Part shown: one piece after another, positions 20-55,399 of the stretch
Numbering within the stretch: position 1 is the stretch's first letter
Layout: each line of letters begins with the position of its first letter
Assembly (NCBI RefSeq): GCF_036345155.1
Contig: NZ_CP107773.1
Location: forward strand, 289,400 to 353,399
From: Streptomyces sp. NBC_00582
GTDB lineage: Bacteria > Actinomycetota > Actinomycetes > Streptomycetales > Streptomycetaceae
Direction of reading: 5' to 3'
DNA: 64,000 bases
The notes under the pieces: model-generated
Told to the model about the DNA's origin: nothing
Database searches by the model: none
The model's input: only the letters and a program-made list of their open reading frames with translations
Made by a program: the position numbers and the translations under genes

Positions 20-48
20 TTGCATAATTGGAAATGATGCTGTAGAGT
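20..48 (+). promoter_or_regulatory. Regulon promoter, copy 1
   Basis: TTGCAT, a 17-bp spacer beginning AATTGGAAAT, then TAGAGT. It matches nine other sites in the window in both boxes and in the first half of the spacer. It drives the gamma-glutamylcyclotransferase gene with a leader of roughly 40 nt. Confidence 0.8.
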
Positions 49-94
49 TGAGTTATCAACGCCGGAGAAGGTCACCGGCGAGCAGTACAGAAGG

Positions 95-538
95 GTGGCG
101 AACGAGTTGTTCACCACTGAGCACAAGCCCGTCTTCGTCTATGGCACGCTCCGTGCCGGACAGGGCAACTACCTGGGCATCCTCCAGGGGACCACGGTTC
201 AGGAGCGCCCGGCGACTCTGAACGACTACACGCTCTTCGGTGCGGGCGTCCCTTTCGCCGTCAAGCGAGAGGGCCGCATCGTCGTCGGTGAGGTCATGGA
301 CGTGGACGCCGAGCTGTGGCCCACGGTGCTCCGTCGCCTGGACCGGCTCGAAGGCTACCGGGGTGAGGGACGCGAGAACATGTACGACCGCAAGGTTCGT
401 ACCGTCACTCTCGCCGATGGCAGCACGGTCGAGGCGTACGTCTACCTCGCGGGCGAGTCGTCCCGCCGCTGGTTCACCGACGCTGACGAGATCCCCGGCG
501 GGGACTTCGTCAAGGCGGAATCCCGGAACTCCCGGTAG
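95..538 (+). CDS. Gamma-glutamylcyclotransferase (AIG2/GGCT-like) protein
   Basis: A 147-residue protein with the family's N-terminal nucleotide-like motif VFVYGTLRAGQGN (residues 13-25), a central GEVMDVD strand and the YDR-VTL segment, followed by a C-terminal AYVYL strand. Members cleave gamma-glutamyl amide or isopeptide bonds, releasing 5-oxoproline. The length is normal for the family. The start is uncertain: GTG at 95 has AGAAGG directly against it, so TTG at 107 is a real alternative. The gene lies 150 nt ahead of a class II glutamine amidotransferase and faces three amidoligases. This combination suggests it trims or recycles gamma-glutamyl amide products. It has the first copy of the window-wide regulon promoter. 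Confidence 0.82.
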   Translation: MANELFTTEHKPVFVYGTLRAGQGNYLGILQGTTVQERPATLNDYTLFGAGVPFAVKREGRIVVGEVMDVDAELWPTVLRRLDRLEGYRGEGRENMYDRKVRTVTLADGSTVEAYVYLAGESSRRWFTDADEIPGGDFVKAESRNSR

Positions 539-602
539 TCCGCATCGCCACCGTACGAACCCCTGTCCGGGGCGGCGGATGGCACAACCCATCTTGAAAC
601 AC

Positions 603-633
603 CCGTCAGGCCGCGCGCGGCGCGGCCTGACGG
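603..633 (+). terminator. Hairpin between cyclotransferase and amidotransferase genes
   Basis: A perfect 13-bp stem (CCGTCAGGCCGCG paired with CGCGGCCTGACGG) around a 5-nt loop. There is no T run. It probably attenuates or separates the two rightward genes. Confidence 0.6.
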
Positions 634-689
634 CTTGAGCAGTACACCTCGGACCCTTCTGGGTGCCCGAGGCGAAGTAAGGAACAACC

Positions 690-1622
690 ATGTGCGGTCT
701 GTTCGGAGTTATCCGCAACCAGACCTGTGACCCCACTCGCGCGACCATCATGTGCGTTGCCCTGGGCCAGCTGGCCGAGGAGAGGGGTAAGGACTCGGCA
801 GGGCTGGCATTCGCCACCTCCGCGACCAAGAAGCTGGACCGGCGCCCGGTCACCAACCGTCGCGACGTGACGGCGGGCGGCTGGCGGATCATCAAGGGAG
901 CGGGCCGGTTCCGCGACGTGTGGAAGCCCGCCTACAACAGCGCGCTCGACGCGGCTCCGGTCGCTCTCGGACACACCCGCTGGGCGACCCAGGGCGGGAC
1001 GACCCTGGTCAATTCCAGCCCGTTGCAGGTGGGTCAGCTCATCGGCACGCACAACGGAGACGTGGACACCTGGCCGCTCCGGTCGGACTTCGGTCTCCCG
1101 CGTCCGACCGGGGGTACCGACACTGAGGTCCTGTACCAGGCTCTCGATCAGGCGGGCGGGGTCATCCTGCCCACCCTCGACGTCCTGGAGTCCACCGTGG
1201 GCCGGGCTGCGCTGGTGTGGACCGACCGGCGTTGGCCGCAGCTGGTCATGCTGGCGCGCACGGCGGTGAGCCCGCTCTCTGTCGCTGTCGACACGGACGG
1301 AAACCTCTATTGGGCGTCCAACCCCGGGTGGTTCGACAAGGCCGCCCGTGCGGCGGACGTCTCCATCACGGAAGTCCTGATGGTTCCGGAGGGAACGCTG
1401 ATGATGGTGGACTACTCCTCGGGGGCTCCGGTCCCGATCGACCAGCGGAAGTTCACCGCGACGGCCCGTGCCAAGGACGACCGTCTGGCGCACATCGTCG
1501 CCTACCGGGGCTTCAGCCTGGATGACCAGCTGGCCGACGAGGAGGTGTGTGGCCACCGGACGCTCCGGGAGCCCCAGCGGTCGCGGTCCGTGCCGCCGAC
1601 GCTCTGGCTCTCGCCCAAGTAA
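690..1622 (+). CDS. Class II glutamine amidotransferase
   Basis: The protein begins MCGLFGV, so Cys2 becomes the N-terminal nucleophile after Met removal, as in GlmS, PurF and asparagine synthetase. Other hallmark residues are visible: GHTRWAT (about residue 90), THNGD (about 118) and GGTDTE (about 137). These bind glutamine and form the oxyanion hole. At 310 residues it has the glutaminase domain only, with no synthetase or phosphoribosyl partner domain, so the ammonia or glutamyl group must go to another protein. AAGGAA sits 8 nt before the ATG. It converges on the amidoligase genes, and the pairing of GATase II, GGCT and amidoligase suggests one pathway making and editing amide-linked products. 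The last 30 residues are Arg/Pro-rich and look unlike the fold. Confidence 0.85.
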   Translation: MCGLFGVIRNQTCDPTRATIMCVALGQLAEERGKDSAGLAFATSATKKLDRRPVTNRRDVTAGGWRIIKGAGRFRDVWKPAYNSALDAAPVALGHTRWATQGGTTLVNSSPLQVGQLIGTHNGDVDTWPLRSDFGLPRPTGGTDTEVLYQALDQAGGVILPTLDVLESTVGRAALVWTDRRWPQLVMLARTAVSPLSVAVDTDGNLYWASNPGWFDKAARAADVSITEVLMVPEGTLMMVDYSSGAPVPIDQRKFTATARAKDDRLAHIVAYRGFSLDDQLADEEVCGHRTLREPQRSRSVPPTLWLSPK

Positions 1623-1631
1623 GTCCACCGG

Positions 1632-1675
1632 AAAGGGGCTGGGGCACCGCATGTTGCGGTGCCCCAGCCCCTTTT
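1632..1675. terminator. Bidirectional terminator between convergent genes
   Basis: A 20-bp stem (AAAGGGGCTGGGGCACCGCA and its complement) closed by a TGT loop. It is flanked by an A run on one side and a T run on the other, so it can stop both the rightward amidotransferase transcript and the leftward amidoligase operon. Confidence 0.85.
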
Positions 1676-1687
1676 CCCGTTGAGCAC

Positions 1688-3313
1688 TCAGTACTGGCCG
1701 TTGTGCCAGCGGGTGCCGGCGAACAGCGCGGTGACCTGCGCTCGGTTCTCCTCCCGGCTGAAGATCCGGTCCACCATGCTGCGGAACGACCGCGTGGTGT
1801 TGGACCACGCCTCGCCGGTCAGCCGCCCACGGTGGCCGGCCGCAGCCGCGGCCTGGCGGTGGTGCCCGACGCGTTGCCGCGGCGGCGGCGCCGTGGTCCC
1901 AGCCTCCCGCAGGGCGGCGTTCGTCAGGCCGAGCGACACGTTGACCTGCGCCTGGATGGTCCCCGGATCCAGCGATCCGTCCCACATCCGGAACTCGGCG
2001 TGGTCGCTCTCCCTCCCGTTGACGGACTGGAAGTTCAGTCCGATGTGGTGACTGTTGTTGTACCGCTGGACGGCCGAGACCGAGGTGTAGGGGCTCGACG
2101 GCTGGTTGTTGGGAGTGCACCACTCCAGGCCGCGGTGATTGTCGCTGGCCGGGTTCTGGGCGATCCGGTAGATGACGTCCTCGTACCCGGCCACGGTGTT
2201 AATCAGCTGGTTGTGATTGGCGACGGTGTGGTCGTAGTCGGGGACGGCGACGTGGACATGGCCGCCGGTGCGGGCGCTGGCGATGCCTCCGTTGCGCTGG
2301 ACGATCTCGCACACCTGGGCCAGGTTGTTCCACGTCTGCGGCTCGTCGTAGAGAATCGGCGAGACGATCTCGCCGGCGACGGTACCGTCTCTCTCCAGCC
2401 GCCAGGCGTTCGGGGCGTCGGTGTATCCCGCGTGCTGTGATGCGTGCCATCCATGCATGTGCGGGTCTGGCGCGATGCCGGCTGCGTGCAGTTCGCGGGC
2501 GATCCGCTGGTTGGCTTCCTGCCGCGCGGAGTGAGACATCGACGAGGGGTAGTCGAACTCGATCTCGACTCCGAAGGCACGCCCGCCTTCGCGCGCGCCC
2601 AGGCCGCCGGTGGCATTCTCCGTCAGGTACGGCACCAGCGCCTCGCCTGCCGCCCTGCGCTCGCGGGCCTGGTCATACGCCTCCTGGAAGGCGTCCATGT
2701 CTTCTGAGTAGGAGCGCACCGCGGGTTGGGCCGCCCGCTCGGCACGGGCCTGGTCCTGGGCGGCGATCGAGGCGGCATGTTCGGCCGCCACCTCGTCCAG
2801 GACCTCCTGAGCGGCGGCCCGGTCGATCGCCGAGCGGCCGCTCGCGCCGAATTGCTCCTGCACCAGGTTGGCCACCGCGGCCTGGTGGGAGCAGGTGCCG
2901 TCCTCGTCACCGGCGTGCATGTCGCCGCCAGTGCACCGCAGGCTCTCCGGGCTCACCTGGATCTGGCCGTCCGGGCCGCGGGTGACCCGAACGTCGCCCT
3001 CGATGAAGTGGCGCCCGTCCTCGTCGGAAACGCTGGCACCGAGGTTGACCAGGGCATCTTGCTCGTCGGTCACCTGTCCTTGGATGGTGTCCGGGTTGCG
3101 CGGCAAAAACAGCAGGTGGTCATCACCGCTGACCACGTAGTTCTGCAGAATCGGCTCGTCGACCCGACTGGTGTCGACGAAGCGCACCTCAGCGCGCTCC
3201 GGCCGCTCCTCAATGGTCAGCGGCGCAGCCTCAGCGACGAGCGTGTCCGTGCCCCGCGTCGGCGCGACACTGTGGTGCTGATGATCTATTCGGCTTCCCG
3301 ACCCCACGTTCAT
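1688..3313 (-). CDS. Amidoligase A (ATP-grasp-like COOH-NH2 ligase)
   Basis: The C-terminal half carries the amidoligase signature seen in all three paralogs here: FGVEIEF (about 247), GEIVSPILYDEPQTW (about 315), GGHVHV (about 349) and EFRMWDGSL (about 440). This family (Pfam 'putative amidoligase enzyme') is thought to ligate amino groups to carboxylates with ATP. The N-terminal half is different from the paralogs apart from the opening MNVGSGSRIDHQHH tag, and it adds a domain with a CTGGDMHAGDEDGTC segment. I chose the ATG at 3313: it overlaps the previous stop as ATGA and has GGGGGGA upstream. A longer reading frame to 3400 lies inside the preceding gene. This is the last gene of the leftward operon. 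The substrate is unknown. Confidence 0.82.
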   Translation of the reverse strand: MNVGSGSRIDHQHHSVAPTRGTDTLVAEAAPLTIEERPERAEVRFVDTSRVDEPILQNYVVSGDDHLLFLPRNPDTIQGQVTDEQDALVNLGASVSDEDGRHFIEGDVRVTRGPDGQIQVSPESLRCTGGDMHAGDEDGTCSHQAAVANLVQEQFGASGRSAIDRAAAQEVLDEVAAEHAASIAAQDQARAERAAQPAVRSYSEDMDAFQEAYDQARERRAAGEALVPYLTENATGGLGAREGGRAFGVEIEFDYPSSMSHSARQEANQRIARELHAAGIAPDPHMHGWHASQHAGYTDAPNAWRLERDGTVAGEIVSPILYDEPQTWNNLAQVCEIVQRNGGIASARTGGHVHVAVPDYDHTVANHNQLINTVAGYEDVIYRIAQNPASDNHRGLEWCTPNNQPSSPYTSVSAVQRYNNSHHIGLNFQSVNGRESDHAEFRMWDGSLDPGTIQAQVNVSLGLTNAALREAGTTAPPPRQRVGHHRQAAAAAGHRGRLTGEAWSNTTRSFRSMVDRIFSREENRAQVTALFAGTRWHNGQY

Positions 3314-3852
3314 TCCCCCCGCACGTTCGGCGGCAGCGCACCCTGCTCGGCCGCCAGGTGGATCACACCGGCCTGGTGGAGCGAAACCAGCAGGCTCCAC
3401 TCGTCATCGGGCTCGATCCAGATCAGCGCCTCATCCGGCCCCTCGGGACGAGGCAGCCGACCGGCCGGCTTGTAGAACGTGGTCACCAGGACCAGCGGGA
3501 CGGGGGCATCCCAGCGGCTGACCACCGGGGGCGTGTCCCGCGGGGCGAGAATCGCCTGCTGCTGCTCGGGGCTGCACTGCGCGAACTCTTCCGACGCCGC
3601 GAGCGCGGCCTGCAGCTGCACCTGGAGGCGCAGGGCCAGCCGGATGCGTGCGGCAGCCTTCTCCTTCGGGCTGATGAGTTCGGGGTATTCCGGGATCAGG
3701 CCTTCCATGAGCTCGGTCGGGGTGTCGGAGTAGCCGCGCCAGCTACCGCCGTCGTAGATCATCTCGAAGACGTAGTTGCTGCCGTTGTCCTTCTTCGGAG
3801 GGTCCAGCGGAGTGGCGGCGGAAGAGGCGTTGCGGGTGCGGATGAAGGTCAT
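3310..3852 (-). CDS. Uncharacterised protein of the amidoligase operon
   Basis: A 180-residue protein not assigned to a family. It starts MTFIRTRNASSAATPLDPPKK, has a helical Gln/Ala-rich middle (IRLALRLQVQLQAALAASEEF) and a C-terminal alpha/beta part with FYKPAGRLPRPEGPDEALIWIEPDDEW. There are no membrane segments and no Cys clusters. The ATG has GGAG 5 nt upstream, lies 17 nt after amidoligase B and overlaps amidoligase A by 4 nt. It is therefore co-translated with them and may be an accessory or substrate-binding subunit. Confidence 0.75.
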   Translation of the reverse strand: MTFIRTRNASSAATPLDPPKKDNGSNYVFEMIYDGGSWRGYSDTPTELMEGLIPEYPELISPKEKAAARIRLALRLQVQLQAALAASEEFAQCSPEQQQAILAPRDTPPVVSRWDAPVPLVLVTTFYKPAGRLPRPEGPDEALIWIEPDDEWSLLVSLHQAGVIHLAAEQGALPPNVRGE

Positions 3853-3868
3853 GGCATCTCCAGGGGGA

Positions 3869-5419
3869 TTAGTGCCGCTGCCAGCGGGTCTGTTGGAACA
3901 GAGCGGTTGCCTGCGCCTTATCCTCAGGGCGCTGGAAGAGCGAATCGACCATCCGCCGGAAGTCCGCGGTGGTCGTGCGCCAATCGTCACCGGACAGCCG
4001 CCTACGTTGTCCGACGCCGGCCTGGCGCCGCTGCTCGAGATGGCTGCCCAGCTGCATGCGCGTGCCCGGGACGGTGGTGTCGCCCCGAACGGCCGCGGCC
4101 GCCATGCCCAGGGAGAGCTTGACCTGCGTCTGGATCACAGAAGGGTTGAGCGATCCGTCCCACAGCCGGAACTCGCCGTGCGCGCTCTGCCCGCCGCGCC
4201 GCGCGCCGCTCAGGTTCACGGCCATGCCGTGGTACGACTCGATCTGCGAGATTGCCGTATACCCCTGCGACGGGACCGGGTTGGGACGGCACCAGCGTGT
4301 ACCGCGGTGTTGATTGCCCTCGGAAGCGGGGTTCTGGGCGAGCCGATACAGCACGTCCTCGTGGGCGGCGTACGTCTGCATGAGCCGGGTGTGGTTGGCA
4401 ACGTCGTGGTCGTAGTCGTGCATACCCACGTGGACATGGCCGCCTGTGCCGAACGAGGCTCGGCCGCCGTTTCGCTCGATGATCTCGCAAGCAGTCGCAA
4501 GGTTCTGCCAGGACTGGGGCTCGTCGTACAGGATCGGCGAGACCAACTCGCCGGCTACCGTGCAGTCCTGCTCCAGCCGCCATGCGTTCGGCTCGTCGGT
4601 GTAGCCCGCCTCCAACTGGGAGTGGTAGCCGTGCTGCCGTGCCGTGCGGGACAGGCCCGCATCGCGCAGTTCACGGCCGATGTTCTGGATGGCCTGTCGG
4701 CGGTCGACGCCGGGGTCGATGTCGAACTCGATCTCGACACCAAACCCACGTCCGCCCTCACGCGCCCCAAGTCCGCCGGTGGCGTTCTCCGTCATGTACG
4801 GAACGACCTGCTCCCCGCGCTCCGCTCGCTCCCGCGCGGCCTCGTAGTCTCGCTGGAAGGCATCGAAGTCGTCGGTGTAGCTGACAGATTCGTTGGCCGG
4901 CCATTGCTCGCGAGCCTGCTCCTGGAGCGCCGCGGCCGCCTGATGCTCGGCCGCGACCTCGTCCAGGACCTGCTGAGCGGCCGCCCGCTGGACCGCACGG
5001 TCATCGGGGGAGAGACCCGCATCGGGCGGAACTTCACGCTGAGCGGGGACTCCGTTGCTGAGCGCTGAACGGAGAGCGTCAATCGCTTCGGGGGTGGCCA
5101 GAGTCGAGTCGGAGCTGGCCTGACGTATTCCTCCCTCGTCGTCTTCGGGCTCGGCGTCCGTGATGAGCCCGTGCCCGTTCCACAGGTCGTACTCGCTGCG
5201 AAGCCGCTCGCGCAGACCCCAGTACTCCAAGGCCTCTTCCGAGGTGGCGGCTCCGTTGTTGGCCTCCCAATCGGCCTGGATCTGCAGGGCACGGTCGATC
5301 AGTTCGCGCTGTCCCTCGGGCATGAGGTCGACCCCAGTGGCAGGGGCCTCGACGGTGAGCCCTGCCGCGGTGGTGGCGACGAGGTGGTGCTGGTGGTCGA
5401 TTCTGCTGCCGGATCCCAT
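3869..5419 (-). CDS. Amidoligase B (ATP-grasp-like COOH-NH2 ligase)
   Basis: A 516-residue protein. The N-terminal tag MGSGSRIDHQHHLVATT is followed by a helical region nearly identical to that of amidoligase C (residues 30-85, with the WEANNG and EYWGLR segments). A linker then leads to the catalytic part: TGGLGAREGGRGFGVEIEF (about 215-231), GELVSPILYDEPQSW (about 288), GGHVHVG (about 325) and EFRLWDGSL (about 416). The conserved acidic and His residues fit a metal-ATP site. The RBS AGGAGG lies inside the end of the short tagged ORF just upstream. Tandem arrangement and near-identical N termini indicate recent duplication with amidoligase C. Confidence 0.83.
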   Translation of the reverse strand: MGSGSRIDHQHHLVATTAAGLTVEAPATGVDLMPEGQRELIDRALQIQADWEANNGAATSEEALEYWGLRERLRSEYDLWNGHGLITDAEPEDDEGGIRQASSDSTLATPEAIDALRSALSNGVPAQREVPPDAGLSPDDRAVQRAAAQQVLDEVAAEHQAAAALQEQAREQWPANESVSYTDDFDAFQRDYEAARERAERGEQVVPYMTENATGGLGAREGGRGFGVEIEFDIDPGVDRRQAIQNIGRELRDAGLSRTARQHGYHSQLEAGYTDEPNAWRLEQDCTVAGELVSPILYDEPQSWQNLATACEIIERNGGRASFGTGGHVHVGMHDYDHDVANHTRLMQTYAAHEDVLYRLAQNPASEGNQHRGTRWCRPNPVPSQGYTAISQIESYHGMAVNLSGARRGGQSAHGEFRLWDGSLNPSVIQTQVKLSLGMAAAAVRGDTTVPGTRMQLGSHLEQRRQAGVGQRRRLSGDDWRTTTADFRRMVDSLFQRPEDKAQATALFQQTRWQRH

Positions 5420-5422
5420 GTG

Positions 5423-5530
5423 TCAGGCCCTCCTCACGGTCCGTCGGGTGGTGAGCCGCACAGAGCGGCCGGGGTCGGCGGAGCTTCTGCCGAGGTGATG
5501 CTGGTGGTCGATCCTGCTGCCGGACGCCAT
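5423..5530 (-). CDS. 35-residue ORF carrying the amidoligase N-terminal tag
   Basis: It reads MASGSRIDHQHHLGRSS, then a basic tail ending TTRRTVRRA, stopping 3 nt before amidoligase B. AAGGGGG lies 9 nt before the ATG, and the GGGCCTNAC block before the start is shared with amidoligases B and C. It is either a remnant left by unequal crossing-over among the tandem amidoligase genes or a genuine short peptide, for example a tagged substrate. The Arg-rich, low-complexity tail favours a remnant; the intact RBS and stop keep the peptide possibility open. Confidence 0.45.
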   Translation of the reverse strand: MASGSRIDHQHHLGRSSADPGRSVRLTTRRTVRRA

Positions 5531-5614
5531 CGGTAAGGCCCCCTTTCGGGTCTTTGTTCGTCCGTCGTCCCCTTAGCGGGTCGGCGGTGTGGCTTGTGGC
5601 GACGAGTGCGAGCG

Positions 5615-25640: not shown

Positions 25641-25960
25641 AATTGGGGAGTACATCCGCATCACTGACGACTACAGCACGTCACAAGCGGGACAGCTCCG
25701 TGAAGCCCCTTCGAGCCGCGTCCGATCAGTTGACCGACCGGTGCGCTCGGCACCGCGCGCGGGAGCCCGGTCGCCGCCGACCGGCTTGGCGGCGCGCCGC
25801 GTGGGTCGACCGCGTACGCGCCGCGCGCCTGCCACAAGCGCACGTCGGTGGGCACCGCGCGCGCCGCGCGCGACGACGTCACCCGGCGGCGCACCGAGGA
25901 GGCAGGCCCGCACTCCAACGCGCGCTTCGGCGCGCGCACGAGTGCGGACGAGGCGGCTGG

Positions 25961-28750: not shown

Positions 28751-29494
28751 TCATTTCGCGTCAGGTTCACCATAGTTAGGCACATTTCCAGACCAATCAG
28801 TCAAGCTGACTCTATCGGCCCGGATGATCATAAACTCACAACTCCGCGCCTGCTCCCCGCTGTAGCTCACGCGCTGCACTGAAAGCGCCACGGCGGTCCG
28901 TGACTTGAGTAGCGCCGTCTCCTGGTCCGTCGCCAGCCGCGCCGAGATGGTGTGCAGGTGCCCGGTCTCCTTCAGGCCGGCCGCGTCCAGGATTCCGGCC
29001 TCGTCGACGAGATCTGGATCCAGGAGCCGGGGGGCGGCGTCGGCGATGCCCCGCGGCACGTACATCTCTCGCACTGCCCAGGGGGCGCCGGTTCGGCCGA
29101 GGACGCTCTGGCGCAGGACGACGCTCATCTCCGGCGGTCCGCCCAGCGCGTCGGCGACAACGTCGGACGCCTTGCAGAACGCCGTGGTGACCGGCTCGGC
29201 CGTGTCGCCGGCCTGCGCGAGGGCGGGCCGGACGTGGCCGTGTTCGTCGACGCGTGCCTCGAAGGCGGCAGCAGGCGAAAGGATCATGTAGCCGACCTTG
29301 GGAACTGCCCTGATCAAGCCCTCCTGCTCAAGGATTTGCATGGCCGCGATCAGCGTCTTGCGTGCACATCCGAGATGCTCGGCGAGCTGACGCCCGGACA
29401 CGATAGTGCCGGGCGCACGGTCGGGTTCGCCGTTGAGGATCTCAGTACGCAGTTGGTCGGCGAGGCTGCGCCTGCTGGTCGGGGTCGTGGCCAT
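28751..29494 (-). CDS. GntR-family repressor with UTRA domain
   Basis: About 247 residues from the ATG at 29494. The winged helix is SLADQLRTEILNG...GRQLAEHLGCARKTLIAAMQILEQEGLI (about 10-60). The UTRA effector domain includes VVLRQSVLGRTGAPWAVREMYVP and ends CEFMIIRADRVSLTDW. In Streptomyces plasmids KorSA/KorA-like members of this family repress transfer genes, and this one is divergent from the spread/TraB operon. The frame runs on to 29635, but that part encodes the inverted repeat, so I used the inner Met; ATG at 29503 is also possible. TGCGGCA-N5-TGCCGCA overlaps the start and could be its own operator. Confidence 0.85.
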   Translation of the reverse strand: MATTPTSRRSLADQLRTEILNGEPDRAPGTIVSGRQLAEHLGCARKTLIAAMQILEQEGLIRAVPKVGYMILSPAAAFEARVDEHGHVRPALAQAGDTAEPVTTAFCKASDVVADALGGPPEMSVVLRQSVLGRTGAPWAVREMYVPRGIADAAPRLLDPDLVDEAGILDAAGLKETGHLHTISARLATDQETALLKSRTAVALSVQRVSYSGEQARSCEFMIIRADRVSLTDWSGNVPNYGEPDAK

Positions 29495-29719: not shown

Positions 29720-30346
29720 ATGACCAGCATGACAGCCGACTTCCCCCCACAGGACGCCACCGAGATCGGCAGCGCCCTCGCCGAGACCTACTCGGTAGCC
29801 GCTCTGGCCAACGGCGGCTACCTGGCCGGCCCCGACGGGCAGACCGTCGCCAGCCAGATGCGCGAGCCCCAGCTGCGCGAGGCCCTCCTGCTGGGACGCT
29901 GCGGCGGCACGAACGACGTCAATGCCTTCTACCAGCGCGACGAAGAGCCGGCCGAAGAGTGGATGACGCGTCGCGAGTGCACCATCGCCCAGTACTGCGC
30001 ACCGTGCCCGGTGGCCGCCGCCTGCCTCGAACTCGCCCTGCGCTACCCCGAGCACCCCCGCGACCTGGCGGTGCGCGGCGGCACCACCGAGGAGATGCAG
30101 TTGACCCTCGGTAAAGCCGACCACGAGCGACTGGCCAAGGCCTGCGCCCTCGACGCCAGGCCGGCCGAACAGCGCGTCGAGCGGCTGCGCGCGGCCCGCG
30201 AGGTGAAAAGGCTGACCCAGTCCCACATCGGCCTCTCGGTCAAGCCGGACGTCCGGAAGACGAACCACACCGAGCTCAAGGCCGCGGTCGCCCACCACGA
30301 GCGGCTCCAGGGCGAGTACCGGCGCGTGACGGGGTGGGCCGCATGA
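29720..30346 (+). CDS. WhiB-like (Wbl) iron-sulfur regulator
   Basis: A 208-residue protein. The Wbl cysteine set is visible: Cys61 (GRCGGTND), Cys93-x2-Cys96-x5-Cys102 (QYCAPCPVAAAC), with an extra Cys87. The usual G-[VI]-W-G-G turn is AVRGGTTEEM here, so the key Trp is replaced by Arg. It has long extra N- and C-terminal segments; most family members are 80-130 residues. Wbl proteins bind a 4Fe-4S cluster and partner with the primary sigma factor. It heads the spread/TraB operon and is a candidate activator of plasmid promoters. Confidence 0.85.
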   Translation: MTSMTADFPPQDATEIGSALAETYSVAALANGGYLAGPDGQTVASQMREPQLREALLLGRCGGTNDVNAFYQRDEEPAEEWMTRRECTIAQYCAPCPVAAACLELALRYPEHPRDLAVRGGTTEEMQLTLGKADHERLAKACALDARPAEQRVERLRAAREVKRLTQSHIGLSVKPDVRKTNHTELKAAVAHHERLQGEYRRVTGWAA

Positions 30347-37968: not shown

Positions 37969-38315
37969 ATGGCCGGCTGATCGGCGCCCATCGGATCCTG
38001 ATTGGCCGTGATCAGCGGCCCCAGCCGAACAAGGCCAATGCCCGGCGTGATCAAGGACCGATGGTGGCCTGCGAGAACCGATCCAGCCGTTCAAGATCCA
38101 CCACCCCGGCCTGCGAGCCTTTTCAGCGTTTCGCCGGCGAAGCGTGCTCCCGGGCCCGGGCGCCGGGAGGGGGAGGAGCGGCATCAACCTCGTGCGTGTG
38201 TTGCTTAATTGGAAATATCGCTGTACTCTTTGAATATCGCAGGGCGTTGCTACCTCCGCCGCCCCACCCCCGCCGTCACCGACGGGCTCTCAACGCCGAA
38301 GAACAGGAATCATCC
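37969..38315 (+). other. Intergenic region with regulon promoter
   Basis: No gene seen. A GGCCG/CGGCC hairpin lies near 38003-38020 after traB; the regulon promoter follows at 38201. Confidence 0.5.
38201..38229 (+). promoter_or_regulatory. Regulon promoter, copy 2
   Basis: TTGCTT, 17-bp spacer beginning AATTGGAAAT, TACTCT. It precedes the SsgA-like gene with a leader of about 80 nt. Confidence 0.78.
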
Positions 38316-38729
38316 ATGGGCTTTCCCGGTTTGGAACAGAAGATCCGCATGACGCTCGTGACCGAGCACGACGTGCGAGTCCCCGTGCCCGTGAGGCTCT
38401 ACTACCTGAGCGCCGACCCCTACGCCGTCCAGCTCTCCTTCGACATCTCGCCCGACGAGGTGGTCCGGTGGACGTTCGCCCGCGAACTGCTGGCGCAAGG
38501 CATGACGGCGCCCGCCGGCATCGGGGACGTGAAGATCACCCCCATCGGGACCACCCAGAACCCCAGCTTCAGCATCGAGCTGGAGACCTCCGAGGGATTC
38601 GCGCGCCTCGAAGGCATGGCGACCCCCGTCAAGTCCTGGCTCGACAAGACCTACGAGGCGGTCCCCGCAGGAAGCGAGTCCGACGCGCTCGACATCGACA
38701 GCATCCTCGAAGAACTCCTGGCCCACTGA
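38316..38729 (+). CDS. SsgA-like sporulation/cell-division regulator
   Basis: A 137-residue protein matching the SsgA-like fold: VPVPVRLYYLSADPYAVQLSFDI (about 24-46), VRWTFARELLAQGMTAPAGIGDVKITP (about 50-76) and a C-terminal helix. The family is confined to sporulating actinomycetes and directs septum placement. AGGAA lies before the ATG. Carriage on a transfer element, under the same promoter design as the orphan island, suggests the element alters or exploits septation during transfer or sporulation (inference). Confidence 0.85.
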   Translation: MGFPGLEQKIRMTLVTEHDVRVPVPVRLYYLSADPYAVQLSFDISPDEVVRWTFARELLAQGMTAPAGIGDVKITPIGTTQNPSFSIELETSEGFARLEGMATPVKSWLDKTYEAVPAGSESDALDIDSILEELLAH

Positions 38730-42479: not shown

Positions 42480-42496
42480 TTGCATAATTGGAAATA
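42480..42496 (+). promoter_or_regulatory. Truncated regulon promoter, copy 3
   Basis: TTGCATAATTGGAAATA is intact, but the -10 half is replaced by the arm of a 14-bp hairpin. It is probably a decayed promoter now abutting a terminator. Confidence 0.6.
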
Positions 42497-42528
42497 CCTA
42501 TGGCCGCTCACTTCTGAGCGGCCATAGG
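42497..42528 (-). terminator. Leftward terminator
   Basis: A perfect 14-bp stem (CCTATGGCCGCTCA and complement) with a 4-nt loop, 30 nt past the stop of the leftward membrane gene. Confidence 0.75.
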
Positions 42529-42558
42529 GAGGGGCGGAGCGCGGGAAGGGGGGAGGAA

Positions 42559-43334: not shown

Positions 43335-43363
43335 AGCCTACAGCAATAAAGGCAATTAAGCAA
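43335..43363 (-). promoter_or_regulatory. Regulon promoter, copy 4
   Basis: TTGCTT, 17-bp spacer beginning AATTGCCTTTAT, TAGGCT, reading left. The start codon lies 8 nt past the -10 box. Confidence 0.8.
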
Positions 43364-44575: not shown

Positions 44576-44604
44576 AGCGTACCGCAACAAAACCAATTAA
44601 GCAA
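44576..44604 (-). promoter_or_regulatory. Regulon promoter, copy 5
   Basis: TTGCTT, 17-bp spacer beginning AATTGGTTTTGT, TACGCT, reading left into the 176-residue gene. Confidence 0.8.
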
Positions 44605-46222: not shown

Positions 46223-46251
46223 ACCCTACAGCCGTATTTCCAATTAAGCAA
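46223..46251 (-). promoter_or_regulatory. Regulon promoter, copy 6
   Basis: TTGCTT, 17-bp spacer beginning AATTGGAAATAC, TAGGGT, reading left. Confidence 0.82.
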
Positions 46252-49122: not shown

Positions 49123-49371
49123 GTCTGTTCCTTGGATGTGCTGCGGCGCGTACCGAGTGTGTGCGGGCAGTGCCCGGCGCGAGGGGTAGCCGCCAGCGGG
49201 CCTAGCCGGACGGCTGCTGTGCCCGCCTGGAGGCAGGCTGGGGCGGCGCGTGCCGTGGCCATAAGCGGTCCCGGGGCAACTGGTCGCCAGTGCGGCGGCC
49301 CGGAGTTCGCAAAACGGGGAATGGACACCGGATCCTGGACACCTCTCCCAGGCTCTTGCGCCTGCTGCCAG

Positions 49372-49551: not shown

Positions 49552-49610
49552 AAGGGGCTCCCGAGATGTGAGTGAGGGCCGGGCCCGGAGTGGCCGACCG
49601 GTAGGACCTA

Positions 49611-49639
49611 ACTCTACATCAGTAAATCCAATTATGCAA
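49611..49639 (-). promoter_or_regulatory. Regulon promoter, copy 7
   Basis: TTGCAT, 17-bp spacer beginning AATTGGATTTAC, TAGAGT, reading left. The upstream gene's final codons run through the -35 region. Confidence 0.82.
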
Positions 49640-49975: not shown

Positions 49976-50055
49976 GGTGTCCTGTCGATAAGTGGGGAAT
50001 GGCTGCGCCCGCCGGGCTGTAGGCCGCCGCGGACGCTAGTCGGCGGCGAACGCGG

Positions 50056-50691
50056 TCACGCGCGCCGGTACCGGTTGCACTCACGGTCATGGCGCCGCCC
50101 GTAGCGCTCCTGCGAGTAGCAGTCGCAGTGTCGCGAGACGGGAGCGCTGACGAAGTCGGCGATCACCGCCGCGACGGCGGCCGAGTCACCGGCGCAGTCC
50201 ACGAGCCCCCCGCCGCCTGCGATGTACAGCGGATCGCCAATCGGTTCGCCCTGGTCGTCGTGCACGAACACGGTCCATCCCGTGTGCGAGGCAGGCACAT
50301 GGTCCACGGAGGGATCCCGGTCACCCACCGACAGGTGGAAGCCGGAGCGAACGTTCCACGACGGAGTCTCGGGGTCGAAGGCGACGGCGTAGCTCATGCC
50401 GACGTCGTCGGAGTCGGCACGGATGCCGTACTCGGCGAGCGCGCCCAGCAGCAGCGCGCCTGCGGTGGGGCGCGGACTGCTGAACCACTCGTCGACGGCG
50501 CGTGCGCACTGCTCAGCCTCGGCCGCAAGGGCGCGCCGCACGGGTGTCGTGTAGACGGTGCCGAGCTGCTGGAAGCCCGGCCGCCCGTCGGGAATCCACG
50601 CGGTGGCCTCGAACCGCGCTCGGTCCTGGTGGGGACTGTCCGGGACGGCGTCGGCCGAGGCCGAGACGGGCGCTGCGGTGATGCTGGGCAT
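50056..50691 (-). CDS. Uncharacterised 211-residue protein
   Basis: ATG at 50691 with AAAGG 5 nt upstream is preferred; a GTG at 50742 overlaps the previous stop. A helical region (ALAAEAEQCARAVDEWF) is followed by alternating strands with WTVFVHDDQGEPIGDPLYIAGGG. It ends in a Cys/Arg/Tyr-rich tail (RHCDCYSQERYGRRHDREC). Family unknown. Confidence 0.68.
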   Translation of the reverse strand: MPSITAAPVSASADAVPDSPHQDRARFEATAWIPDGRPGFQQLGTVYTTPVRRALAAEAEQCARAVDEWFSSPRPTAGALLLGALAEYGIRADSDDVGMSYAVAFDPETPSWNVRSGFHLSVGDRDPSVDHVPASHTGWTVFVHDDQGEPIGDPLYIAGGGGLVDCAGDSAAVAAVIADFVSAPVSRHCDCYSQERYGRRHDRECNRYRRA

Positions 50692-50738
50692 GAGGGCCTT
50701 TCGAGGTGCTTCAAGGGGAGCGGACGGAGGTTCGTGGG

Positions 50739-51380
50739 TCACCCGCCCACCTCGTTCCCGGCGTTCAGGTCGATGGTGACGCGCTCACCCTGCTCGTCCT
50801 CGACCTCCAGCACGGGCGGCCACGCGTCCGTGGCGTAGCTCCGCAGCTGTTCGTACGCGAGCCGCGCCGCCTCCTGCGGGCTGGACGCCTCGAAGTCGTT
50901 GTGCCACGTGACGGAGTAGACGGACTCGGACTCCGGCGCCTTCTCGGCGGCGGCTTCAGCGCGCGCCACGACGGCGGCGCGGATGACGGCCACGGGCCGG
51001 TTGCGCAACACGAGGGTGCACGGCTCGCCGTCCTCAGCGGGGGCAAGGCAAATGAAGCGCAAGGCGACGTCGGCGACGCGGCCGGGCTCGGCGAGCGTCC
51101 AGGCGTCGAGGTCCTCGCACTCCTCGCACCCCTTACACGGGCAGTCGCGGACCGCGTGCGGATGGGCGGGGTACGGGGCGGGGACGTGCTCGGTCGGGCG
51201 GATGCCGGTTCCGTCGGAGAACTCGGCGACCAGTAGGTCACCGGCGCGTACCTCGTGGGCGCGGACGGCCACGGCGTCGTTCAGGGTGAGCCCATGGGGG
51301 AGGGGCAGGAAGTCGTCGTCGGTCGGCCGGTCGGGGAGGGAGAGTACGCCGGAGCCGTCGGGAAGGGTCAGAGTGTGCAT
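50739..51380 (-). CDS. Uncharacterised protein with CPCKGCEEC cluster
   Basis: 213 residues. The N-terminal half ends in RDCPCKGCEECEDL, a four-Cys site; a further Cys pair (FICLAPAEDGEPC) follows. The C-terminal domain is alpha/beta (VYSVTWHNDFEASSPQEAARLAYEQLRS) and resembles small domains in which a Gly/Trp strand precedes a long helix. Probably the first gene of a two-gene unit with 50056. Confidence 0.68.
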   Translation of the reverse strand: MHTLTLPDGSGVLSLPDRPTDDDFLPLPHGLTLNDAVAVRAHEVRAGDLLVAEFSDGTGIRPTEHVPAPYPAHPHAVRDCPCKGCEECEDLDAWTLAEPGRVADVALRFICLAPAEDGEPCTLVLRNRPVAVIRAAVVARAEAAAEKAPESESVYSVTWHNDFEASSPQEAARLAYEQLRSYATDAWPPVLEVEDEQGERVTIDLNAGNEVGG

Positions 51381-51477
51381 GGCCGGAGTCTTCTTACGGT
51401 GTCGTGGTGTTCATGTGGTGACGGGCTCGGGGCCCAGGGCGGGCCCTCACCGGAGCGCCCGCCCTGCTGCGCCGGGC

Positions 51478-51807
51478 CTAGCAGCGTGCCCATCCGAAGA
51501 ACAGCCATCCGCAGTGCTGCGGCGCTCCGCCTGTCGAGGGCGTCTTGTGCACCGGGATGGCTCCCGCCGGATCCGATGACTCCGGGTAGAGGCCGTCTTC
51601 CATCTGTTGGTAGGCGTACGTCTCGGCCCGGTCCTGCGACATGCTGGTGTCAGTGACGACCTTGTACTCGTCTTTCTCGGCGATGGTGCCGGTATACCCC
51701 CTGTTCGAGGGACTCCCGAACTCCTCTTCTGCCTCTTCGCGAGCTGTGCGGAACGCCTGTTCCACGTCCGTTCCGTCTTGGTATGTGGTGATGAACTCTC
51801 GGCCCAT
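51478..51807 (-). CDS. Uncharacterised 109-residue protein
   Basis: Starts MGREFITTYQDGTDVEQAFRTAREEAEEEFG and has GYTGTIAEKDEYKVV then a helix; it ends HCGWLFFGWARC. The layout (strand, helix, strand) suggests a compact soluble fold. The CGWxFFGWxxC end is unusual. Not recognised. Confidence 0.66.
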   Translation of the reverse strand: MGREFITTYQDGTDVEQAFRTAREEAEEEFGSPSNRGYTGTIAEKDEYKVVTDTSMSQDRAETYAYQQMEDGLYPESSDPAGAIPVHKTPSTGGAPQHCGWLFFGWARC

Positions 51808-51882
51808 GATCTCGGTCCTCTTCTCGGGTCGGTGCGGGGCGAGCCAGGGTCCAGCCGTGCGACTGAACCCCGTCGGCGGGGG

Positions 51883-52305
51883 TCAGCTGACCCGGCGGAA
51901 GGAGTCGGCGGCGGCCCGGGCGAAGTCGCGGTTGGCGTCGAGCCACAGATGACGGCGGGCGTCGGCAACGGGGTTTCCCATGCCGCCCCCCGGGCGCTCC
52001 GCTGCCAGCTCCGCCTTCGCCATCTGCTCGTGCCAGGTGGCCACGGCATCGCGGCTCGACTGGAGGGCGTCGAGGAGGTCCTGCCACAACCCGGTCTCGT
52101 ACTGGGCGCGCGTGATGGTCTCGAAGAATCCGTCCATGCGGACGTTCTCGGCTGTCAGCTCCGGCTCCCGCAGACGCTCCAACGAGGTGGTGCCCCGCCG
52201 CTGCGCGTTGGACCTACCCGCATGTGCAGCGGTCGCGAGCCTCCCCGCGTGCATCCGGCGGTCACGCTCGGCACGGGTAGCGTCGCTCGTGCGGGTGCTG
52301 CTCAT
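51883..52305 (-). CDS. Uncharacterised helical protein
   Basis: A 140-residue, highly charged helical protein (RYETGLWQDLLDALQ-like helices in the middle; AKAELAAERPGGGMGNPVADARRHLW near the end). AAGGAC precedes the ATG; a regulon promoter lies about 90 nt upstream. Not recognised. Confidence 0.65.
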   Translation of the reverse strand: MSSTRTSDATRAERDRRMHAGRLATAAHAGRSNAQRRGTTSLERLREPELTAENVRMDGFFETITRAQYETGLWQDLLDALQSSRDAVATWHEQMAKAELAAERPGGGMGNPVADARRHLWLDANRDFARAAADSFRRVS

Positions 52306-52392
52306 GGGGGAGTCCTTCCTATGGGCGGTCGGGAGGCTGCCGGGGCGCGCCCCGCCGGGGAGTTGGGCGGACTGGCCGCCCCAACAAGCCCA

Positions 52393-52421
52393 ACTCTACA
52401 TCGATAAATCCAATTAAGCAA
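52393..52421 (-). promoter_or_regulatory. Regulon promoter, copy 8
   Basis: TTGCTT, 17-bp spacer beginning AATTGGATTTAT, TAGAGT, reading left. Confidence 0.83.
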
Positions 52422-52690
52422 CTAACAATGAGAGGGGTTAAGGCGCGAAGATTCGCGGAACCGAGCCGCATCCGAAGGCGCCCCCGCAGGACTCGCCCGT
52501 GCCGGCCCAGACTTCCCACAGAGGCTGCCGAACTAGCGCGCCCACAGTCGGACAAAGCAAGCCAGGACTGCGTCGATCCGCCATGAACCCTGGAGATCCA
52601 CGGCGCGATGAGCCCGCCGGCACAGAGCCCGCCTGCACACCGTGGGGGAACGAACCCGCCGGGACTGCTCGCCCCAGCAACCGCAGGGCA
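52422..52690. other. Intergenic region
   Basis: I see no gene; only a loosely repeated GAGCCCGCC/GAACCCGCC phrase around 52615-52665. Confidence 0.4.
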
Positions 52691-53170
52691 TTAGGGCGTG
52701 ATGTAGCCGGCGCTCAGGAGCCAGTAGGGACCACCGTTCGGCCCGAATCGGCGGCCGATGTCCGCCGCTGTACTCGACGGCATGTCCGGCAGCGCCAGCA
52801 CGCCCACCGTGCCGCCCGCCGCCAGCGCGAACGCCACCCAGGCCCGGATGCTCACGCTGTCGGGGATCTCGAACCGCGCGCTGCCCTCCTCAGCGTGAAA
52901 GGAGAACACCACCCGCCCGTCGCACTCCACCGTCCACCGGGCCCGCGAGTCCTGCGCCCTGGCCGTCATCCCGCGCGGTACGAAGCGATGGCGCGTCGCA
53001 AAGGCGTCCAACTCGCCAGGGGCGGCTCCGGGCACGGGCACCAGGGCGACCACGGGGGTAAGGCCGTCGGCCAGAGGAAGCCCGATAGGCACCGCCTCCA
53101 CGGATGGCATCCCTTCCCCGCCACCCACTACCAACACCCTGCGCGAACCGCCGGATCCGCCCGGCATCAC
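52691..53170 (-). CDS. Uncharacterised 159-residue protein
   Basis: GTG at 53170 (or the adjacent ATG at 53167) overlaps the previous stop. Pro/Val-rich N terminus, a DAFATRHRFVPRGM segment, and a hydrophobic VSIRAWVAFALAAGGTVGVLAL stretch that may be one membrane helix. Not recognised. Confidence 0.62.
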   Translation of the reverse strand: MMPGGSGGSRRVLVVGGGEGMPSVEAVPIGLPLADGLTPVVALVPVPGAAPGELDAFATRHRFVPRGMTARAQDSRARWTVECDGRVVFSFHAEEGSARFEIPDSVSIRAWVAFALAAGGTVGVLALPDMPSSTAADIGRRFGPNGGPYWLLSAGYITP

Positions 53171-53526
53171 ACGTCACCGGCCTGGATCCGGCTCTCACAC
53201 TCGGTGGCGAGCGCAGCGATGGCGCGATCCATCTCCGGCATGGTGGGCCAGTAGTTGGACCTGCATACCGTCTGCGAGGGCAGCCCGGTCAGGTACTCCC
53301 GGTAGAAATCCTGTCCCGCTTCGGTGGCCCGTACGAAGCTGTCGTTCTCCGACTCCTCGCCATCGGCTAGCCAGGCCACCAGACCTGCACCTACCAGCGG
53401 TCGGACGTGCAGCCTGTAGCCGCCGAGGGTGTGGTTGTACTTCGAATCGTTGCCCTCGGCAGCGCCCCGCAACAGTCCGAGGGTGTGGGTCCAACTCACG
53501 TGGCTGAGCTTGGCCTTGCTGTCCAT
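53167..53526 (-). CDS. Winged-helix-like small protein
   Basis: 119 residues. HTLGLLRGAAEGNDSKYNHTLGG...LVGAGLVAWLADGEESENDSFVRATEAGQDFYREYL looks like a MarR/PadR-type winged helix by pattern, with the wing at DGEESENDSFVRAT. It could be a local regulator. GAGAGAG precedes the ATG. Confidence 0.62.
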   Translation of the reverse strand: MDSKAKLSHVSWTHTLGLLRGAAEGNDSKYNHTLGGYRLHVRPLVGAGLVAWLADGEESENDSFVRATEAGQDFYREYLTGLPSQTVCRSNYWPTMPEMDRAIAALATECESRIQAGDV

Positions 53527-53645
53527 GATGATCTCTCTCGGTGAAAGGAGCCGGGCGTTGTCCCCGGCGGCTGGCCGGTGTCTCGCCTGGGGCGATCGGC
53601 CTGCCGCCGGGGACGCTATTGCGAAGGTGTTCCGCTACCGGGGGG

Positions 53646-54422
53646 TCAACGCCGCTTGGCGCGGAGCTGAAGAGTGCGGTCGTAGTTCTGGTACCGGGCC
53701 TTGGCGATCACGGACCGATCCATGCTGCGCAGAACGATGCCCTCGGGACGACCGCCCGCACCCGCGTCCAGGGCCACGAGCGTGGTGGAGAGGTGATGCG
53801 CGAGGAAAGCGTGCATCGCCTCGATGCCGGTGGGCAGCTCACTCCCCTTGAGCGTGGCCAGGCGCGGCACCATGTCGATGCCCTCATCGACGGCGATCTC
53901 GGTGAGCTCCTGCTCGGTGTGGAAGTGCTGCCCGCCCTTGTCCCGCCAGAGCGCGATATCGGCAAGGGGCAGCCCCAGATAGGCGGGGTCGATCGCGGCG
54001 ACGTCGAAGAGGCGGTGACCCAGGGTCTGCGCACCGGTGTACTGGGCGCTTGCGCGGCTGATCTTGTTGCCGCCGTAGACCTCCAGGTAGTACACGCGAA
54101 TTCCCAGTTCGGGCGAGGTGATCCGTTCGGCCAGCGGCCGCAGAGCCTCAACGATGCCGAGCTTCTCGTTCCAGACCCTGTCACCCCGCGCATAGAAGAG
54201 CGTCTCGCGGCTGCCGAGGAAGTAGTCGCCCCCGGGGAGGGTGATGATCCGGGCGTTCGTGCCGTCCACTTTCTCGGTCAGCACGACGTCACCGCTGAAC
54301 TCAGTGACCTTCTCGGTCAGCCCGCCGTTGTTGCGCTGGTCAAGCTCGTGGTAGGTGAGGATCGAGGGGTACTTGGTCGCCGAGTTCAGGGCTGCAAGAT
54401 CGAGGTCCGCGACAGCGGGCAT
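53646..54422 (-). CDS. RNA ligase (Rnl2-type nucleotidyltransferase)
   Basis: A 258-residue protein with the covalent nucleotidyltransferase motifs in order: motif I EKVDGTN (nucleophile Lys51), SRETLF (about 71), motif III YYLEVYGGN (111-119), LFDV (138), motif IV EGIVLR (227-232) and motif V IAKARY (Lys241). These enzymes seal RNA nicks through an adenylylated lysine. All catalytic residues are intact and there is no extra C-terminal domain. GGAGCGCTC precedes the ATG, and it has its own regulon promoter. RNA repair on a mobile element often answers or accompanies RNA-cleaving toxins; no such toxin is recognised here. Confidence 0.85.
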   Translation of the reverse strand: MPAVADLDLAALNSATKYPSILTYHELDQRNNGGLTEKVTEFSGDVVLTEKVDGTNARIITLPGGDYFLGSRETLFYARGDRVWNEKLGIVEALRPLAERITSPELGIRVYYLEVYGGNKISRASAQYTGAQTLGHRLFDVAAIDPAYLGLPLADIALWRDKGGQHFHTEQELTEIAVDEGIDMVPRLATLKGSELPTGIEAMHAFLAHHLSTTLVALDAGAGGRPEGIVLRSMDRSVIAKARYQNYDRTLQLRAKRR

Positions 54423-54485
54423 GAGCGCTCCAGGCGTGCGTGGTTGGGAAGGGGGTTGAGGCGCTCCCGCGCTCCAACAGCTCTA

Positions 54486-54514
54486 ACTCTACTTAAATAA
54501 ATCCAATTAAGCAA
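54486..54514 (-). promoter_or_regulatory. Regulon promoter, copy 9
   Basis: TTGCTT, 17-bp spacer beginning AATTGGATTTAT, TAGAGT, reading left into the RNA ligase gene with a leader of about 57 nt. Confidence 0.85.
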
Positions 54515-54526
54515 TACCCATGATGG

Positions 54527-54814
54527 TCACCCCTGGCGAGGTTCCCGCGTCTCCCGGCGCGCAAGGGGCGGGAGACGGGTGCCGGCCACCACCGGCGGTA
54601 TAGCCGGATCGGCGGTGAACGTGACGGTCCACCAACCGAAGTCGTCTGCACTGATCGCCTGCCCATGCACGGCATAGGCTTCCTTGCTGGGGGGTGCGGA
54701 TGCCGCGCGCACGGCGCCGCTGGGATCGCAGATCAGACCGAACACGATGAACGCGCGGTGTGGCCTGGAACATCGCGCTTGCCCTGGGGATCGCGCCGTC
54801 CCGCGCTGCCGCAC
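54527..54814 (-). CDS. Possible small protein
   Basis: 95 residues from GTG at 54814. Residues from about 22 (FIVFGLICDPSGAVRAASAPPSKEAYAVHGQ...) look protein-like, with GWWTVTFTAD, but the first 20 do not and no RBS is visible; GTG at 54745 may be the true start. It ends just ahead of promoter copy 9. Confidence 0.45.
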   Translation of the reverse strand: MRQRGTARSPGQARCSRPHRAFIVFGLICDPSGAVRAASAPPSKEAYAVHGQAISADDFGWWTVTFTADPAIPPVVAGTRLPPLARRETREPRQG

Positions 54815-54831
54815 CCGTGGGTGGTGGGGCG

Positions 54832-55233
54832 TTACCCCGCTACGTCGTAGCGGCGAACGTCGCTCAGCGGATGAACCTCATGATGGAAGGTGAATCCGCG
54901 CTCGTTGCGGACGCTGATGAAGCAGGGAGCCTTGTATCCGTCCTGTGACGGGTGGAATGAGACAACCTCGCCTTCAATGCGATGTTCTTCGTCATCCTCA
55001 TCGACACCAGGAGGAGCAAAGCTGATCATGAAACCCTCTTGGACCTCATGAGCCTCAAGATCTGTGTACGCTCGGGCAGCTTTGGCCTTGAGAACCGTGA
55101 CCTTCGTCGCCAACCCGTTGATTTTCGTGACAAGCCCAGAGAGGCCTGCGAACTCCTCGGCATGTGCGATCAGGAGAGAATGTAGATCTTCAACCTCGCG
55201 GGCAGTAAGGCTGACGTTGGCCTTGAACTTCAT
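54832..55233 (-). CDS. Uncharacterised coiled-coil protein
   Basis: 133 residues from ATG at 55233 with GAGGA upstream. LTAREVEDLHSLLIAHAEEFAGLSGLVTKINGLATKVTVLKAKAARA forms a coiled coil; the C-terminal part is beta-rich with EGEVVSFHPSQDGYKAPCFISVRNE. Regulon promoter copy 10 lies 138 nt upstream. Confidence 0.68.
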   Translation of the reverse strand: MKFKANVSLTAREVEDLHSLLIAHAEEFAGLSGLVTKINGLATKVTVLKAKAARAYTDLEAHEVQEGFMISFAPPGVDEDDEEHRIEGEVVSFHPSQDGYKAPCFISVRNERGFTFHHEVHPLSDVRRYDVAG

Positions 55234-55370
55234 TAGAACTTCCTCGCGTTGAGATGAAGTGGCTTGACTTCGGGTCGTGCTCTGGATCCCGACCCGCCGC
55301 GCCCGCTGTTCGCATGCAGTCGCGAGAGGGTCGCCACCAGGCAGCCGGCGTCTCGCCCACGCCGCCTCTG

Positions 55371-55399
55371 ACTCTACCTGAATAAATCCAATTAAGGAA
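55371..55399 (-). promoter_or_regulatory. Regulon promoter, copy 10
   Basis: TTCCTT, 17-bp spacer beginning AATTGGATTTAT, TAGAGT, reading left. The -35 is the least perfect of the set. Confidence 0.78.

Follow-up and report, generated by a model that had tools for sequence, protein, structure and literature searches.

What reads a promoter whose spacer is conserved along with its -35 and -10 elements? The question is raised by a 64,000-bp stretch of DNA (the window) at the right end of C2 (NZ_CP107773.1), a 353,399-bp contig in the 11.1-Mb genome of Streptomyces sp. NBC_00582, of which it forms the right fifth (C2:289400-353399). The first bases of C2 recur inverted at the opposite end, and hence we take C2 to be a linear plasmid. 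A first-pass annotation of the window had described ten promoter-like sites sharing a -35 of TTGC(T/A)T and an AATTGG block at the start of the spacer, nine of them with a 17-bp spacer and a TAGAGT-like -10, and had proposed a dedicated regulator that binds the spacer. Here, we report that the motif is a dedicated plasmid promoter regulon, which stands before many transcription units of one replicon and was not found on the chromosome, and that the spacer carries a code that appears to be read by a multi-headed DNA-binding protein made by each plasmid itself.

All ten sites are present at the coordinates in Table 1, three on the forward strand and seven on the reverse. The shared -35 is found in nine of them, site 55371 reading TTCCTT instead, and the AATTGG block likewise in nine, with AATTGC at 43335. 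An exact 17-bp spacer followed by TANNNT is also present in nine, the exception (42480) being the one already recorded. The genes described as following three of the sites, for a cyclotransferase (site 20), an SsgA-like protein (38201) and an RNA ligase (54486), do lie downstream of them. These names, like those of the other site-led genes, come from the annotation of the close relative NBC_01454, and the C2 genes themselves are codon-usage calls made in this analysis, not published annotation.

The ten sites make up about one third of 34 copies on C2, in agreement with the idea of an element-wide promoter family. When up to two mismatches to TTGCWTAATTGG were tolerated, 34 places on C2 matched; 93835 was dropped for want of a promoter-like continuation, and a weight matrix was built from the remaining 33. 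This matrix found 34 matches on C2 at 28-61 bits, namely the 33 plus one weak site (45448), compared with none above 5 bits in 400 kb of chromosome (20 samples) and a maximum of 1.1 bits in five first-order Markov shuffles of C2. High scores at these 33 sites follow from how the matrix was made, and independent evidence comes instead from an exact-pattern scan of the whole genome: all 17 matches to the degenerate form TTGCWTAATTGGN{8,16}TANNNT are on C2, the 10.8-Mb chromosome has none, and the reversed pattern has no match either. By these scans of C2 versus chromosome, the motif is not equally frequent in the host.

The consensus is aTTGCnTAATTGGATTTAynnnnGTAgrgTT. TAnnnT stands at the expected spacing in 32 of the 34 C2 sites, being missing at 25668 and 331879 (window 42480), and in the C2 matrix the four positions preceding the -10 are variable while the block is held. 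Three block matches on C2 fall outside a strict TTG-and-TA test, one of them solely through its TTCCTT -35. Relative to an inferred start site, the conserved stretch spans about -36 to -19, or 17-18 bp. The next called gene is on the same strand for 33 of 34 sites, and a same-strand gene starts within 420 bp of 32. Under a simple operon rule, the site-led set would comprise 74 gene entries (71 different genes), among them RNA ligases, DNA methylases, LigA, HU, a TetR protein and one tRNA. The last is a tRNA-Ile gene (anticodon TAT; L020:13776-13850) approximately 110 bp after site C2:233961; two more tRNA genes lie in L011 of C2.

Other signals around the sites were tried and set aside. To the eye, hairpins in the leaders were conspicuous. 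Folding of the transcribed leaders, set against mononucleotide shuffles, gave mean z values of -0.5 for C2 and -0.4 for NBC_01454, with z<-1 in 9/34 and 6/34 leaders and in 7/34 and 9/34 upstream controls, and leader hairpins were rejected. A simple dyad in the C2 block (TAATTGGATTTA) was dropped since, by eye, it does not carry over to other codes, and eight-mer enrichment gave no informative signal.

The C2 block also occurs in NBC_01454, S. filamentosus, S. zinciresistens, S. anulatus NRRL B-2873 and Streptomyces sp. A012304. A strict pattern run over contigs of 84,980 species matched 34 stretches, 32 of which belong to the last four of these, and the two single matches in Bacteroidota are probably chance; viral contigs held no exact match to the strict motif. 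In S. filamentosus the sites are confined to the terminal 275 kb of a 1.8-Mb scaffold and the terminal 70 kb of a 1.4-Mb scaffold, which means that the plasmid is either joined to the chromosome arms or mis-scaffolded. Copies that lack a -10, like that at window 42480, recur in all five of these relatives.

Related plasmids retain the frame TTGCnnA-N16-TAnnnT and swap the spacer block. Distant plasmids of the same backbone keep TTGCnTA and TAnnnT with a different block, a constancy to be read with the fact that the scans demanded these bases in part. The block is TTGCtTAcTTcTTTtT at 26 sites in NBC_00280, whose code recurs in S. althioticus and S. cellulosae, and TTGCTTAActCtAtGAgT at 28 sites in NBC_01216. 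The open frame TTGCNNA-N16-TANNNT is present in 18 of 18 further family records, at 13-23 sites each (reversed pattern, 0-5), and by eye and matrix it carries further codes in YIM 121038/alboflavus, in pFRL4-like plasmids, in ITFR-21 and in K. purpeofusca, for a total of seven distinguished blocks and a pSCL3 variant. In K. purpeofusca the end stretches and a loose C2-code scan of the whole record were empty, and the open-frame scan located its own code elsewhere; Kitasatospora NBC_01519 had nothing in its end stretches or in the loose C2-code scan of its whole record. From the block alone, leave-one-site-out assignment was correct for 227 of 233 sites of the records examined, a figure made optimistic by the inclusion of orthologous sites of near relatives. 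Counting TTGC..A and TA...T with spacers of 11-24 bp in 12 datasets gave 219 matches at 17 bp, 2 at 16 bp, 1 at 18 bp and 0-3 per dataset at the remaining lengths; near relatives were counted separately, so the 219 matches are not 219 independent events.

A dedicated DNA-binding protein encoded by the plasmid, as first suggested, is the simplest account of the conserved spacer. Candidates were chosen among C2 genes conserved in NBC_01216 and NBC_00280 (blastp). Our candidate reader is a 469-residue protein (C2:283169-284578, minus strand) encoded 4.8 kb to the left of the window, beside a gene for a 253-residue protein (C2:282370-283131). Both proteins resemble arrays of MerR/excisionase winged helices, and in many plasmids their counterparts form one gene. 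By tblastn the two are found in the same 30 of 72,556 PLSDB records, all of them Streptomyces or Kitasatospora plasmids of 223-968 kb, matches that are not independent given that the proteins share repeats; phage records held no match to the 469-residue protein at E<=1e-3. An AlphaFold2 model of a 93% identical homologue (P0001) has five helix-helix-wing-helix repeats, at about residues 10-62, 89-151, 183-245, 282-345 and 383-445 as read from the element list, and its mean predicted local distance difference test score (pLDDT) of 78 and predicted template modelling score (pTM) of 0.34 are as expected for beads on a string. We predict that the 469-residue protein consists of five tandem MerR/AlpA-like winged helices. 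Among 20 homologues, 14 match Pfam MerR, 7 HTH_17 and 7 AlpA at E<=0.05, the best match to the MerR/AlpA/excisionase superfamily having an E of 2.2e-07. A frame site lies within 330 bp upstream of 25 of 27 genes for the protein, which suggests autoregulation. To the left of the window, the gene on C2 has a leader of approximately 175 nt (L023:4579-4752), with similar leaders in near relatives, and the promoter copy that precedes the regulator gene is often atypical in its block or -10; together, these possibly reflect extra control of the regulator.

Does the code follow this protein? When the seven codes, labelled by the analyst from the site lists, are mapped on a tree of 27 proteins, they require six changes; this is the minimum, and none of 200 label shuffles came as low. 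The pFRL-like code does not form a single clean clade and takes two changes, the second copy in NBC_00445 (copy b) grouping with the ITFR-21 proteins at low support. Stronger evidence comes from plasmids with two copies of the protein. In pSCL3, which is carried by the deposited type strain S. clavuligerus DSM 738 and absent from the Leon isolate (PMC8743545), copy a shares 67% identity with the NBC_01216 protein, and among ten sites examined the sole two of the NBC_01216 code (12.2 and 21.8 bits) flank it, one preceding the protein gene and the other the next gene, whose product is 65% NBC_01216-like. The remaining eight sites roughly match what copy b predicts, five fitting the pFRL4 code best (1.3-11.9 bits). 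NBC_00445 may be two plasmids fused into one. Its copies are nearest to the proteins of ITFR-21 (copy a, 67% identity) and pFRL4 (copy b, 57%), and the 11 sites examined split five and five between the ITFR-21 and pFRL4 codes, with one that fits none.

The association extends to a sample of the genus. With one pFRL4-type query at E<=1e-12 and four candidates scored per genome, a scan that distant members may escape, the protein is encoded in 7 of 392 genomes. Sites of the C2 code are found in three genomes and of the pFRL code in one, and all four are among the seven (p=3.6e-8); without the discovery genome, three are among six of 391 (p about 2e-6, by hand). In two genomes of the genus, G256 and G371, the sites lie at exactly the coordinates found in S. 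zinciresistens and S. filamentosus. Another two of the seven have matches at the coordinates seen in NBC_01216 and YIM 121038. The last of the seven, G147, was picked solely for encoding the protein, and clustered frame sites, although not their code, were predicted beforehand. This prediction held: the open frame matched 19 times, 13 of the matches being of the NBC_01216 code by eye (three imperfect) and lying on four contigs that include the one with the protein gene, while the other six were scattered and unrelated (reversed-pattern control, 4).

From these data we consider it probable that the tandem protein reads the code. Several observations count against this or against the wider picture. 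Any co-inherited backbone gene would give the same co-occurrence and tree agreement, and only two plasmids, pSCL3 and NBC_00445, break this confounding; in pSCL3, moreover, three of the eight remaining sites fit other codes best (3.0-4.8 bits), which makes its main code a variant. In their MerR matches, the C2 protein (28 versus 28.2 bits) and P0001 both narrowly miss the curated cut-off, and two of the 27 protein genes, in K. purpeofusca and S. nojiriensis, have no upstream frame site. The K. purpeofusca code is conserved mostly around the -10 and not in the block. A promoter is rarely kept on orthologous genes between codes: among 103 reciprocal best hits with NBC_01216, four genes are site-led in both plasmids and four in each alone (p=0.001), and among 97 with NBC_00280, two are site-led in both and four and five in one alone (p=0.06). 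A further DNA-binding-like protein, of BTAD type, is likewise conserved in the plasmid family, and the activating role proposed below comes from geometry and analogy alone.

The best explanation, which we hold to be about evenly poised between right and wrong, is a promoter set of the plasmid's own in which the tandem protein reads the block as an activator working with a host sigma factor. Basal recognition of TTGC and TAnnnT would come from that factor, presumably of HrdB type; C2 has no match to sigma region 2, which makes a host factor the simplest source. The tandem protein, together with or fused to its 253-residue neighbour, would bind the 17-18 bp at about -36 to -19 and so mark approximately 30 promoters and 70 genes as belonging to the plasmid, and joint diversification of block and protein would have given the plasmid-specific codes. 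HrdB promoters have a conserved -10 and a little-conserved -35 (PMC6344877), and in Streptomyces the activator AfsR occupies -40 to -19, where it contacts sigma region 4 (PMC10936776). An activator is favoured by the rigid 17-bp spacing, by the weakness of the -35 and by a footprint that resembles the AfsR box, and the protein would then most likely hold sigma region 4 on the poor -35, as SARP activators do. If the tandem protein is the reader, activation is thus somewhat the likelier sign.

The same protein and sites could instead form a plasmid-wide repressor system, with promoters that are silent in the resident host and fire briefly once the plasmid reaches a new cell that lacks the repressor (establishment or zygotic induction), as with the Bacillus plasmid p576, a possibility that we rate as real but on the unlikely side. 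A 17-bp spacing is optimal for sigma70 without help. Several site-led genes (DNA methylases, RNA ligases, LigA, HU and the tRNA) fit establishment, although the list as a whole suits an activator and a repressor alike, and the often atypical copy before the protein's own gene resembles the less strictly repressed Reg-p576 promoter (PMC8708921). However, nothing would oblige a repressor site to keep a spacer of exactly 17 bp, as almost all of some 220 matches do, and sites outside promoters are indicated most clearly, and almost solely, by the copy without a -10 at window 42480.

That another plasmid gene encodes the reader, be it GntR, WhiB, the SARP-like BTAD-type protein (C2:56202-57338) or the product of an unrecognised backbone gene, is improbable. 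GntR and WhiB are conserved side by side in most family plasmids, but each occupies one place per record wherever found (38 of 38 and 32 of 32 records, respectively). Of the plasmids with two codes, pSCL3 has one of each and NBC_00445 has neither at E<=1e-5. The tandem protein fits these plasmids, whereas GntR and WhiB, with one or none there, do not, and both are disfavoured as the specificity factor. In the 16 kb of pSCL3 examined, the apparent transplant comprises the tandem protein and its site-led neighbour without a GntR or WhiB match; another three genes in that stretch are homologous to NBC_01216 genes, and two of these also resemble C2 genes. The BTAD-type protein, so named in NBC_01454 and without a Pfam match in its C2 copy, is also found in NBC_01216 and NBC_00280, and SARPs generally bind such a promoter region. 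Its relatives are nevertheless spread over 187 records from many genera, which disfavours it as the reader, and the match in NBC_00445 is a LysM protein (among the 60 of 187 matches listed); it is a possible second transcription factor of the plasmid. A TetR protein (C2:29545) had no similarity match in NBC_01216.

Two further explanations do without the tandem protein. Ordinary HrdB promoters might have been spread by cassette duplication, the spacer being conserved through shared descent with no reader; the sites are indeed alike and clustered in islands, but the four positions before the -10 vary while the block is held, and in relatives the block is replaced plasmid-wide while the frame persists, which leaves this very improbable. 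That a plasmid-encoded alternative sigma factor reads the entire element is hardly credible: TTGC and TAnnnT are constant across lineages (partly as required by the scans), but none of the 65 Sigma70 region-2 matches in the genome is on C2, and a variable block of approximately 10 bp within the spacer is not a usual sigma contact. The Wbl protein, GntR repressor and sigma-like protein named as candidates in the first-pass annotation therefore all fit poorly.

A more detailed and decidedly speculative version of the tandem-protein reading is a modular DNA-reading array. Each winged-helix unit would read a few base pairs, a constant N-terminal unit taking TTGCnTA and variable units the spacer block, and gain, loss or exchange of units would rewrite the promoter set of a plasmid. 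The codes might then act as regulatory incompatibility groups, through which related giant plasmids coexist without cross-talk.

Plasmid regulons and co-diversifying phage repressors are already known. Like the system proposed here, the Bacillus plasmid p576 (PMC8708921) encodes its own regulator, Reg-p576, has a repeated sequence before several operons and before the regulator gene (here, 25 of 27), and has relatives with a different regulatory sequence. It differs in using a ribbon-helix-helix repressor and TTATCCC dual motifs beside four promoters, as opposed to predicted tandem winged helices, an in-promoter block, approximately 30 copies and several codes in one frame; no ribbon-helix-helix family is among the matches of our candidate and its homologues. 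The repressor and stoperators of Cluster A mycobacteriophages (PMC9283540; PMC6550527) share numerous asymmetric sites spread over a single element, a protein carrying at least two DNA-binding domains, co-diversification of motif and protein and a proposed autoregulatory site. Stoperators also act in elongation away from promoters, whereas at 32 of the 34 sites here a -10 follows at a fixed distance. AfsR and other SARP activators (PMC10936776) likewise cover -40 to -19 over a poor -35 and the spacer, at a fixed distance from the -10 of HrdB promoters, but their dimers bind 11-bp direct repeats, of which none common to the codes was seen, and the tandem protein has no match to a SARP-type DNA-binding and BTA domain (Pfam, NCBIfam). 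BldC (PMC5859096) is a MerR-like winged helix that binds AT-rich sites asymmetrically and head to tail in Streptomyces; it is a single 68-residue unit (about 70 residues across the family) that oligomerises, in contrast to the five units predicted in one chain. A literature search by title and start of abstract, with most subscription journals outside its coverage, found no description of the motif or regulator, and a one-frame promoter family with interchangeable plasmid codes and a tandem winged-helix protein may be new.

Table 1 Promoter copies and associated genes in the window (window coordinates)
Feature	Position	Strand
Promoter copy TTGCAT-AATTGGAAAT..-TAGAGT, 75 bp before gamma-glutamylcyclotransferase gene	20..48	+
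Gamma-glutamylcyclotransferase family, first gene after site 20	95..538	+
GntR/UTRA regulator; conserved in plasmid family, single-copy	28751..29494	-
WhiB-like regulator; conserved in plasmid family, single-copy	29720..30346	+
Promoter copy ahead of SsgA-like gene	38201..38229	+
SsgA family gene after site 38201	38316..38729	+
-35/spacer block copy without -10, runs into perfect hairpin (42480-42530)	42480..42508	+
Promoter copy, AATTGC variant	43335..43363	-
Promoter copy	44576..44604	-
Promoter copy	46223..46251	-
Promoter copy, top-scoring site (61.1 bits)	49611..49639	-
Promoter copy	52393..52421	-
RNA ligase family gene after site 54486	53646..54422	-
Promoter copy ahead of RNA ligase gene	54486..54514	-
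Promoter copy with -35 TTCCTT	55371..55399	-

Two other parts of C2 recur in related plasmids. A large terminal gene and a gene for 206 amino acids (window 57933-63318) seem to be repeated at the left end of C2 and in relatives, where the large gene is named as a DnaB-like helicase or a PHD antitoxin. A Tad-type pilus operon (C2:211913-223742), with CpaF, TadE/TadG-related and type II secretion F proteins, is conserved in NBC_01454, S. filamentosus, S. zinciresistens, NBC_00280 and NBC_01216.

The promoter family could be used to delimit the genes private to giant Streptomyces plasmids, in which many genes carry only a hypothetical annotation. As a series, the pairs of protein and code could reveal how a regulator and approximately 30 promoters shift specificity in concert. 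If the codes are truly orthogonal, they would also provide non-interfering promoter-regulator pairs for an antibiotic-producing host.

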